Below, one piece after another: positions 30,012-31,814 of a stretch of DNA of 64,000 nt. Source of the stretch: Bythopirellula goksoeyrii (GTDB lineage Bacteria > Planctomycetota > Planctomycetia > Pirellulales > Lacipirellulaceae); assembly GCF_008065115.1 (NCBI RefSeq), contig NZ_CP042913.1:133211-197210 (forward strand), read 5' to 3'. The notes beneath the pieces were generated by a model. The model saw only the letters and a program-made list of their open reading frames with translations. It was not told the DNA's origin and did no database searches. The translations under genes and the position numbers were made by a program. Each line of letters opens with the position of its first letter. The stretch's first letter is position 1.

Positions 30012-31043
30012 CTATACCGCCACCATCGCTCCTAGCTCACGATCCACCGCCTCGGCGATTCGTCGGCATTCGGTCATCATCTGCTCGAACTGGGCGAAGT
30101 TCATCGATTGATAGCCATCACTCATTGCCTTGTCGGGGTTCGGATGGACTTCGACGATCAGGCCGTCGGCACCGGCAGCGATTGCGGCCTTGGACATGGC
30201 TGTGACAAGGCTTGTGTGGCCCGTTCCATGACTGGGATCTACGACGATTGGCAAGTGGGTGCGCTGTTGTACGTAGGGGACCGTCGCCAAGGGAAGTGTG
30301 AACCGTGTGTGGCTTTCGAAGGTGCGCACTCCACGTTCGCAGAGCATCACGTTGAGGTTGCCGCCGTCAAGAATGTACTCCGCGGCAAGTAGGAATTCGT
30401 CGATCGTGGCACTCGGTCCGCGCTTCAAGAGCACTGCCCGGGGAGATTTACCGACGGCTTCCAACAAGCGGTAATTCTGCATGTTTCGCGCACCGATCTG
30501 CAAGACGTCCGAGTATTCACTGACCAGGTCGACGTCATCGGGAGATACAACCTCTGTGACGATAGCCAGGCCGGTTTCGTCGCGAGCGGCCGCCAACATT
30601 TTGAGGCCATCTTCCTTAAGGCCCTGGAAACTGTAGGGACTGGTGCGGGGCTTGAATGCTCCACCACGCAAGGCTGAGGCCCCAGATGCTTTGACGGCTC
30701 GGGCGCAGGCAAGGATTTGCTCACTCGTTTCCACGGAGCAAGGACCAGCCATCACGCCGATTGTGCCGTTTCCTACCGACAGGCTGCCGGCAGTGACGGT
30801 ACTGCTTTCTGGCTTGAGCTCACGACTGGCTAGCTTGTACGGTGCAAGAATGGGCAGCACTTCGTCTACCCCTGGACCACTCTCCAGGGAACTGATCCCA
30901 GCGACGCGTTCTTCGCCAACCGCTGCAATTACGGTTCGCTCAGTTCCTTGGATGACATTGGCCTTGAGGCCAAGACCTTCAACATTTGCAATCATGGTGT
31001 CAATATCCTCCTGAGAGGCACTACGTTTCATTACGATAATCAT
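30012..31043 (-). CDS. aroF: 3-deoxy-7-phosphoheptulonate synthase (DAHP synthase)
   Basis: The 343-residue product starts at ATG 31043, preceded by GGAG at seven bases. It catalyses condensation of phosphoenolpyruvate and erythrose-4-phosphate, the first step of aromatic amino acid synthesis. The N-terminal 70-90 residues ([20 protein letters not shown]...) are the ferredoxin-like regulatory extension typical of type I-beta enzymes. The barrel has [42 protein letters not shown] and [12 protein letters not shown]. The frame extends upstream through a tandem repeat, but that extension (SLTHLLTY repeats) is not credible protein. A four-helix-bundle gene, a strong terminator and a leader peptide lie upstream on the same strand. 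Confidence 0.95.
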
Positions 31044-31064: not shown

Positions 31065-31136
31065 AGTGAGTAAGTGAGTAAGTGAGTAAGTGAGTAAGTG
31101 AGTAAGTGAGTAAGTGAGTAAGTGAGTAAGTGAGTA
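31065..31136. repeat. Tandem repeat: nine perfect copies of AGTGAGTA
   Basis: Nine uninterrupted 8-bp units (72 bp) occupy the gap between the four-helix-bundle gene and aroF, 22 bp upstream of the aroF start. Perfect short repeats of this kind vary in copy number by slippage. Three copies in inverted orientation occur at 31557-31580 on the other side of the four-helix-bundle gene. Confidence 0.95.
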
Positions 31137-31149
31137 AGTTGGGGCGATA

Positions 31150-31545
31150 CTATGGTTCGTCGGGTATGCCCTGTTTGGATTTTCGAAGGTAGGCAATATA
31201 GCTATTGATGCGGGCAATTAGTTGTAGAGCGTTTTCTTTGAGGCTGTTTAGTTGATCTTCGCTCGCATGGTTTTCGTCGAAACAAATGTTTAAGTCATCA
31301 ATGACTTCCTCTATGGAACCGCGCGATATTCGGCAAAATCGGATGTTTTGTTGGTAGTACCATCTGCCATGTCCTTCCGCGATATTATTGGAAATTGAGA
31401 TAGCAGCTCTCCGCATTTGATCAGCCAGGGCAAACCTCTCATTTGAAGGAAGTGAGTTGATAAGTACGTAAAGCCGTTTGCGAAAATCACGTGCCTGCTT
31501 GTACAGCTCAAAATCATCCAGACGAAACCGACTCTCGTAAGCCAT
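31150..31545 (-). CDS. Four-helix-bundle protein (23S rRNA IVP / S23-like)
   Basis: A 131-residue helical protein: [20 protein letters not shown], then [20 protein letters not shown] with the diagnostic AA.SI..NIAEG motif, then [20 protein letters not shown] and a last helix with [15 protein letters not shown]. The family is found inside intervening sequences of 23S rRNA genes and also free in many genomes; it is related to the accessory Avd protein of diversity-generating retroelements. Its molecular role is unproven, with nucleic acid binding suspected. No reverse transcriptase or template repeat is nearby. The gene is bracketed by inverted AGTGAGTA repeats and interrupts the region between an aromatic leader/terminator and aroF. 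Confidence 0.9.
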
Positions 31546-31556
31546 CTTAAATCACC

Positions 31557-31580
31557 TACTCACTTACTCACTTATTCACT
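31557..31580. repeat. Inverted copies of the AGTGAGTA repeat
   Basis: TACTCACT, TACTCACT, TATTCACT are three units (the last with one mismatch) of the reverse complement of the 31065-31136 repeat. They lie 12 bp upstream of the four-helix-bundle start. With the nine-unit array they could form a stem of up to 24 bp enclosing the gene. Confidence 0.85.
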
Positions 31581-31591
31581 CTTCCAACAAA

Positions 31592-31628
31592 AAAAGCCCC
31601 GAGAACCGTTGAGGTGCTCGGGGCTTTT
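31592..31628 (-). terminator. Intrinsic terminator of the aromatic attenuator
   Basis: On the minus strand AAAAGCCCCGAG pairs perfectly with CTCGGGGCTTTT across a 13-base loop and runs into a seven-T tract. It begins about 30 bases after the leader-peptide stop. Its 5' arm plus loop (GCCCCGAGCACCTC) can instead pair with GAGGTGGCGGGGC inside the leader coding sequence (31675-31687), the arrangement of a transcription attenuator. Confidence 0.85.
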
Positions 31629-31658
31629 GAGTGTTGTCTACGTATCTTTGCTTAGCAG

Positions 31659-31745
31659 CTACGCATTACCTCCGGCCCCGCCACCTCTTGTAAAAAAGAA
31701 GGAGCGAGTGGAACTAAACCAAAAGTAACCGTAAGTTGCCTGCAT
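31659..31745 (-). CDS. Putative aromatic amino acid leader peptide
   Basis: A 28-codon frame, ATG 31745 to TAG 31659-31661, encodes MQATYGYFWFSSTRSFFFTR followed by GGGAGGNA. Tyr, Phe and Trp make up 9 of its first 18 residues (Y5, Y7, F8, W9, F10, F16-F18). That composition and the strong terminator directly downstream are those of attenuation leaders such as pheL and trpL. The downstream biosynthetic gene on this strand is aroF. The antiterminator arm lies in codons 20-24, which a ribosome reaching the stop would cover and a ribosome stalled at codons 5-10 would leave free. A possible promoter is TTGCCA, 17 bases, CAGAAT (31780-31752), which would give a nearly leaderless transcript. Confidence 0.72.
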   Translation of the reverse strand: MQATYGYFWFSSTRSFFFTRGGGAGGNA

Positions 31746-31814
31746 GTCTGTATTCTGAACACGAACTCCGATTTTGGCAACAGAGAAAAATGCAAAAAAA
31801 GAAAATCGGCCAAT

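Follow-up and report, generated by a model that had tools for sequence, protein, structure and literature searches.

Positions 31592-31745 of the examined stretch of Bythopirellula goksoeyrii DNA (64 kb in full length, referred to as the window) very probably represent a ribosome-mediated transcription attenuator of the gene aroF, as judged from this sequence and its counterparts in other bacteria. Attenuators that work in this way are known; the phylum, the breadth of the occurrence, the mixture of aromatic codons and the promoter fused to the leader are new. The comparison between species supports the short open reading frame (ORF), the terminator, the pairing between regions 2 and 3, the spacing and the position of the promoter, and the conservation suggests that the leader switches the aromatic pathway on when aromatic amino acids run short. 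The elements are, in the direction of transcription:

31775..31780, minus strand: −35 hexamer TTGCCA (together with the −10 hexamer 9 of 12 consensus matches, spacer of 17)
31752..31757, minus strand: −10 hexamer CAGAAT, separated by 6 nt from the leader ATG (a leaderless start is predicted)
31659..31745, minus strand: leader peptide ORF of 28 codons, MQATYGYFWFSSTRSFFFTRGGGAGGNA*, with Y5 Y7 F8 W9 F10 F16 F17 F18 and counterparts in relatives
31696..31708, minus strand: region 1, 5' arm of the 1:2 hairpin (from a single-sequence fold of the leader only)
31675..31687, minus strand: region 2, GAGGTGGCGGGGC, codons 20-24, 5' arm of the antiterminator (pairing tests)
31613..31624, minus strand: region 3, GCCCCGAGCACC, common to antiterminator and terminator (pairing and covariation tests)
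31596..31607, minus strand: region 4, GGTTCTCGGGGC, 3' arm of the terminator (covariation tests)
31589..31628, minus strand: intrinsic terminator, hairpin 31628-31592 and T7 (sequence reading and folding, −23.6 kcal/mol)
30012..31043, minus strand: aroF, 3-deoxy-7-phosphoheptulonate synthase of 343 aa (NF006421, TIGR01361), with a ferredoxin-like PF18152 domain plus PF00793; the presumed regulated gene

An aromatic frame of 28 codons on the aroF strand had been claimed in the preliminary description and is present at 31745-31659 (minus strand), with aroF, the DAHP synthase gene, downstream on the same strand as claimed. The count of nine aromatic residues among the first 18 positions was one too high, since a recount gives the eight residues listed above. 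At least eight aromatic residues in 17 are expected with a probability of about 3.5e-5 for one ORF, given a background of 8.6% aromatic residues in 153 ORFs of the same genome. Approximately 30 nt behind the stop codon the GC-rich hairpin begins, and the seven Ts follow it. Up to this point the described terminator is confirmed; its stem as read from the sequence contains a single C/U mismatch, and therefore the terminator is not the perfect one that had been announced. The alternative pairing of codons 20-24 with the terminator also exists (GAGGTGGCGGGGC with GCCCCGAGCACC, −19.3 kcal/mol, with an internal loop). The leader RNA as a whole folds better than its shuffled versions (z −5.2; none of 200 shuffles as good), and the fold of this single sequence contains a possible protector hairpin between regions 1 and 2.

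The hairpin 31628-31592 is missing from the output of a generic terminator scan, which used settings of its own. A script of ours finds 19 sites with a hairpin and a T-run on both strands of the window, and an aromatic ORF precedes only the attenuator hairpin. Over 400 kb of this genome the count is one such ORF at 185 sites, and this sole chance site combines a weak hairpin with a Phe-only ORF. This rarity is an argument against an ordinary terminator of the upstream gene that happens to follow a chance ORF. The longest upstream ORF, a crude proxy of a gene, does lie on the same strand in 50 out of 65 loci, as would suit such a terminator, but it lies on the opposite strand in 14 of the 65; moreover, a promoter-like pair stands directly before the leader and region 2 covaries with the terminator arm (both below). 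This explanation was already disfavoured and is hardly credible.

The preliminary description had suggested looking for a short aromatic frame plus terminator upstream of orthologous aroF genes. This check was run, and the pair was found in 49 out of 54 loci of the family and order and in 19 out of 26 further loci of the class, compared to none of 13 loci of a paralogue. Within the genus and family 29 out of 30 loci (L001-L030, L008 being the exception) have a short aromatic ORF closely before a GC-rich terminator. The pair also occurs in 20 out of the 24 loci L031-L054, which comprise three loci of the same family and 21 loci spread over 19 further families of the order; it is missing in L037, L049, L051 and L053, and in L038 and L043 only the folding script recognized the terminator. 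Among the 26 class loci 17 lie outside the order, 12 of them with the pair. The pair is thus missing in five out of 54 and seven out of 26 loci, respectively. The class counts leave out 13 further listed class orthologues, and L071, L076, L083 and L085 duplicate loci already counted. L042 has a leader and a terminator by the other reading of the loci, but its terminator escaped the folding script, and the scripted sets therefore do not contain it. Five of the 59 genomes offered no usable sequence upstream of an orthologue (partial match in G002, G011 and G022, no close orthologue in G056 and G057).

The paralogue, a DAHP synthase homologue of about 50% identity, occurs in 29 out of the 59 genomes, the B. 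goksoeyrii genome not among them. In the 13 loci read (L055-L067) the combination of ORF and terminator is absent, L064 and L066 having an aromatic-rich ORF and no terminator, and the three loci L068-L070, which belong to a remoter homologue, lack the pair as well. A stricter folding script, the same kind of test as was used for the chance rate of 1/185, counts the pair in 48/54, 15/26 and 2/27 (phylum) loci and in none of the 16 loci of paralogue and distant homologue. The pair likewise occurs in two of the 27 phylum loci L101-L127, where L102 has only 61 nt of upstream sequence and L108-L127 are only 45-56% identical. In a set of named loci 35 out of 80 have the pair, several of the rest being short of upstream sequence; those with the pair include L204 (Phycisphaerales), L201 (labelled Proteobacteria) and L200, L202, L207 and L210 (Chloroflexota). 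In the loci outside the order (L086-L100) leader ORFs tend to have a longer N-terminus, and the close spacing to a promoter is not seen.

A covariance model reaching from region 2 to the terminator has its best match adjoining aroF in 22 out of 29 relatives, training genomes included, with E below 1e-10. One weaker match at aroF (G043) follows these 22, and all later matches reach at most 34 bits; within these 29 relatives the search, as judged from the listed scores, gave no second convincing element of a regulon. At E≤1e-6 the model matches 109 out of 197 genomes of the order, 103 of them once, and has no match in 88; many of the 109 are new genomes, in which a match counts by its score irrespective of its location. 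Upstream of trpE nothing comparable was seen in the 24 out of 26 loci read upstream of the intended ORF, the script having taken a neighbouring ORF in L247 and L248; L223 has one weak ORF with five aromatic residues 621 nt upstream. No Rfam family (amino-acid leaders, T-box and others) matches at its gathering score, and among the weak matches below it the best leader family is Thr_leader with 20.2 versus 55 bits.

The permutation tests were made with 53 loci, which are the 65 leaders minus 12 near-identical ones, and with a second set of 25 loci, from which L133, L134, L150 and L198 had been dropped because identical loci were already in use; six loci numbered L200 or higher appear in its listing and were kept out of the tests. 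In the terminator 62 cells are changed on both sides compared to 15.3 in shuffled alignments, 90.7% of the cells are paired, and seven of the 11 predicted pairs show change on both sides. An intrinsic terminator, predicted and covarying, stands between the leader and the biosynthetic gene. For the antiterminator in a fixed register 26 double-changed cells were counted versus 15.2 after shuffling (1/500), versus 25 each if the partners are slid by −1 or −2. Paired cells amount to 75.1% as opposed to 52% and 38% in these two, and like the covariation score of 0.137 they lie above the values of all slid versions; two further shuffle measures were unremarkable (86 and 123 of 500).

The register of the antiterminator shifts between species, and we therefore tested the pairing energy. 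In the 53 loci the own duplex of regions 2 and 3 has a mean of −18.5 kcal/mol compared to −15.4 kcal/mol for permuted partners (z −10.3; none of 20,000 permutations as low), while the stretch before region 2 and the spacer as controls reach −9.4 and −5.1 kcal/mol. The second set behaves alike, with −16.0 versus −12.5 (z −7.6; none of 20,000 as low). One has to bear in mind for both values that the permutations do not remove the relatedness among loci. If region 2 itself is shuffled, 63% of the 65 loci reach 0.05. Examples for the changing partners are GGTG/CACC (L001), GAGTC/GACTC (L033), GGATCAC/GTGATCC (L048) and TGGGTA/TACCCA (L039). From these comparisons regions 2 and 3 form a predicted antiterminator that excludes the terminator. 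Together with the conservation, the comparative support for both alternative helices argues for the ribosome-mediated attenuation of aroF that had been proposed at the outset.

A promoter is predicted immediately upstream of position 31745, in the order TTGCCA-17-CAGAAT-6-ATG. Among 55 leaders of the order aligned on their ATG a CTTG is found at about −36 in 50 (within the scanned region), and the −10 elements read e.g. CAGAAT, AACAAT, GATACT or CATAAT. The promoter score peaks at gaps of 6 and 7 nt (5.9 and 5.7 of 12, compared to 3.2-4.6 elsewhere). With gaps of 4-8 nt tried, 6 or 7 nt is the best gap in 46 out of the 55 leaders, 42 of these having a TTG −35 hexamer, and 24 of the 55 promoters individually beat their own mononucleotide shuffles at 0.05. 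In five of the nine remaining leaders (L012, L013, L026, L035, L036) another start codon stands in frame a short distance before the ATG used for the alignment. Words resembling AGGAG, GGAGG or GAGGT occur at −20 to −4 in one of the 55 leaders (L009). We infer a transcription start at the A of the leader from this position of the promoter. Translation of the leader probably begins on a leaderless RNA in most of the order rather than the whole class, because the arrangement of TTG and a 6-7 nt gap is absent from ten leaders of the first set (L081 and later) and found in 11 out of 25 of the named set. Two of these 25 (L164, L169) have words resembling a ribosome-binding site.

The predicted short leaderless mRNA of approximately 157 nt would also fit another function, in which the terminated RNA or the peptide, or both, act in trans and attenuation is secondary, as described for rnTrpL/peTrpL of S. 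meliloti in the available part of that source (PMC7298713). Apart from its aromatic content and the part that overlaps region 2, the peptide is poorly kept, which speaks against such an action, and we consider it unlikely.

In the attenuator that we favor, translation of the leader, sensing by tRNA and the effect on aroF, all of which we infer, would proceed as follows. RNA polymerase would start on the A of the leader ATG or on a neighbouring base, and a ribosome would begin on the 5' AUG of the leaderless RNA. If charged tRNA-Phe, tRNA-Tyr or tRNA-Trp is short, the ribosome would stall among the clustered aromatic codons, most of which lie 12-20 codons ahead of the stop codon, and leave region 2 free to pair with the nascent region 3, so that the terminator 3:4 would be pre-empted and aroF transcribed. 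With plentiful aromatic tRNAs the ribosome would reach the stop codon and cover the core of region 2, the 3:4 hairpin would form and transcription would end.

The geometry of the leaders is consistent with these steps. Region 2 starts at a median of 24 nt and ends 13 nt before the stop codon, its end falling within a five-nucleotide band in 40 out of 65 loci, and in 64 leaders aromatic codons occupy 48-80% of each position at a distance of 12-20 codons from the stop, compared to 0-5% in the final eight. In a model that includes the footprint of the ribosome, a ribosome on most codons of the aromatic zone leaves the core of region 2 free, and one on the stop codon covers it. The modelled nascent 2:3 pairing averages 0.43 for free RNA, 0.63 with a stalled ribosome and 0.00 with a ribosome at the stop codon (65 loci), and the rise upon stalling exceeds 0.2 in no more than 25 of the 65. 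For the full-length RNA of the window itself the equilibrium favors the terminator even if a ribosome is stalled (3:4 0.72-0.73, 2:3 0.00-0.01), and therefore antitermination in B. goksoeyrii would have to be kinetic. L039 and L044 switch at equilibrium for most stall codons.

A further aspect concerns the amino acids that are sensed. The leader ORFs are rich in codons for the end products of the pathway: Phe, Trp and Tyr occur together in 60 out of 65 leaders, and Phe in all 65, Trp in 63 and Tyr in 62, which makes Phe universal in these sets and Tyr and Trp usual. Leaders without Trp include L003, L043, L136, L145, L148, L164 and L169, those without Tyr L036, L054 and L100, and 32 of the 53 leaders have exactly one Trp. 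The strings YFWF and FWF recur in many leaders, YFWF being spelt by four codon combinations; such synonymous variation and the kept spacing to the stop codon would fit a translated leader.

Both the recurring strings and the kept distance of the aromatic zone from region 2 could be read as signs of a TnaC-like arrest, in which a nascent YFWF-type peptide stalls the ribosome on a free aromatic metabolite instead of at starved codons. The order and identity of the aromatic residues vary, e.g. QFGFWWFFS, AYYWFFFS, YRPSFIFSFT and GWWWSWAFT, and a content that is kept between leaders while the exact sequence is not suits the counting of codons rather than an arrest peptide, which we regard as improbable. 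A hint of slow codons in the leaders (TTT 188 and TTC 75, versus TTT 27 and TTC 261 in the downstream aroF genes) is given little weight because the B. goksoeyrii genome uses TTT in 48% of its Phe codons.

With codon counting as the favored reading, sensing of all three aromatic amino acids is plausible from the sequences. All three are present in 48 out of 53 leaders compared to 36.4 by permutation (none of 10,000 as high), and Trp is concentrated at codon −15 (23 out of 64 leaders). Sensing of Phe mainly or exclusively, with Tyr and Trp codons as passengers or fine tuning, is opposed by these two observations; its favorable points are the universal presence of Phe, its position as the commonest residue nearest to region 2 (codon −12 in 46 out of 64 leaders), the result of the second set (all three in 20 out of 25 versus 16.9, a value reached by 762 of 10,000 permutations and thus not significant) and the precedent of AroR, as far as the accessible text of PMC11802643 goes. 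We take it seriously as a possibility, if a rather doubtful one.

The authors tentatively propose, with slightly more reserve than conviction, that a single leader on a leaderless RNA integrates the three supplies, a shortage of any of Phe, Tyr and Trp turning on the first step of the pathway, and that this arrangement is ancestral to much of Planctomycetia and perhaps shared with other phyla carrying aroF of this type. Candidates there are perhaps L204 of Phycisphaerales and L200, L202 and L207 of Chloroflexota, the latter with Phe and Tyr only. Enteric bacteria possess several amino-acid-specific DAHP synthases; if the proposal is true, one gene would do here what they do with several. An attenuator occurring class-wide would provide a natural example in which a single leaderless leader may combine the signals of three amino acids. 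It would moreover imply a tight coupling of transcription and translation in planctomycetes and give a sequence-based predictor of the control of the aromatic pathway.

In the Chloroflexota, short ORFs rich in Phe and Tyr precede a hairpin with a T-run upstream of aroF (AYFYFYFYA, AFYFYFYF and VYFYFYFF in L200, L202 and L207), and the one in L210 also contains Trp. A TTGAC-type promoter ends 9-12 nt upstream of the ORF in L200, L202 and L207; the 2:3 pairing of these candidates is weak.

Between the attenuator and aroF the window contains additional elements:

31552..31580, no strand given: octamer array in inverted orientation, (TCACTTAC)3.6, one of the two arms (repeat analysis)
31150..31545, minus strand: 23S_rRNA_IVP/four-helix-bundle ORF (TIGR02436, PF05635)
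31065..31139, no strand given: octamer array (AGTGAGTA)9.4, the other arm of the inverted arrays around the IVP ORF (repeat analysis)

The distance from the 3' arm of the terminator to aroF is 560 nt in B. goksoeyrii compared to 53 nt in L002 (a 96%-identical relative), 102 nt in L003 and 80 nt in L005. The extra DNA is the IVP ORF between its inverted octamer arrays, and this ORF is absent between attenuator and aroF in the three relatives read (L002, L003, L005). A read-through RNA would carry it ahead of aroF. The octamer AGTGAGTA forms arrays at three other places of the genome (638445, 2579962, 5364685) and one in G004; none of the four other homologues of the IVP ORF in the genome lies at octamer arrays or has an adjoining GTGAGTAA array.

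Several reported systems share features with the planctomycete leader. Leader ORFs starting at the 5' end of the RNA are described, in the available portions of the sources, for trpL of S. meliloti (PMC7298713) and several leader peptides of Streptomyces lividans (PMC8079986); their 5' ends were mapped experimentally, while the planctomycete start follows from the promoter-to-ATG distance. The uORFC-13-1 motif, which precedes aroF in Acholeplasma and in environmental sequences (24 sequences, PMC8632094), is likewise a computational finding, with one or more Phe codons just before an intrinsic terminator and aroF and possible promoter hexamers; according to the part of that source at hand it differs by a ribosome-binding site and by having at least one Phe codon and no Tyr/Trp cluster. 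A study of leader-gene distances that includes Planctomycetes notes no aromatic attenuator in its accessible part (PMC4833913). The author of the preliminary description knew of no planctomycete example, and the literature searched, partly accessible and with subscription papers largely outside, gave no described amino-acid attenuator in Planctomycetes either.

The attenuators trpL and pheL of E. coli follow the same logic of regions 1 to 4 with amino-acid codons as sensor. They differ from the planctomycete leader in responding to one amino acid each, in their target genes and in a leader ORF led by a Shine-Dalgarno sequence. The AroR leader and attenuator of aroF in Corynebacterium glutamicum was reportedly described by Neshat et al. 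in 2014. As far as the accessible parts of the sources tell, ribosome stalling on this leader under Phe limitation raises transcription of aroF (PMC11802643, PMC4046766), and the availability of Tyr is reported to be without effect in spite of its Phe-Tyr-Phe sequence (PMC11802643). AroR is the closest known system, since there too a leader peptide with aromatic codons precedes a DAHP synthase gene; in contrast to its Phe-Tyr-Phe without a response to Tyr, the planctomycete leader has eight aromatic residues, usually includes Trp, and belongs to another phylum.
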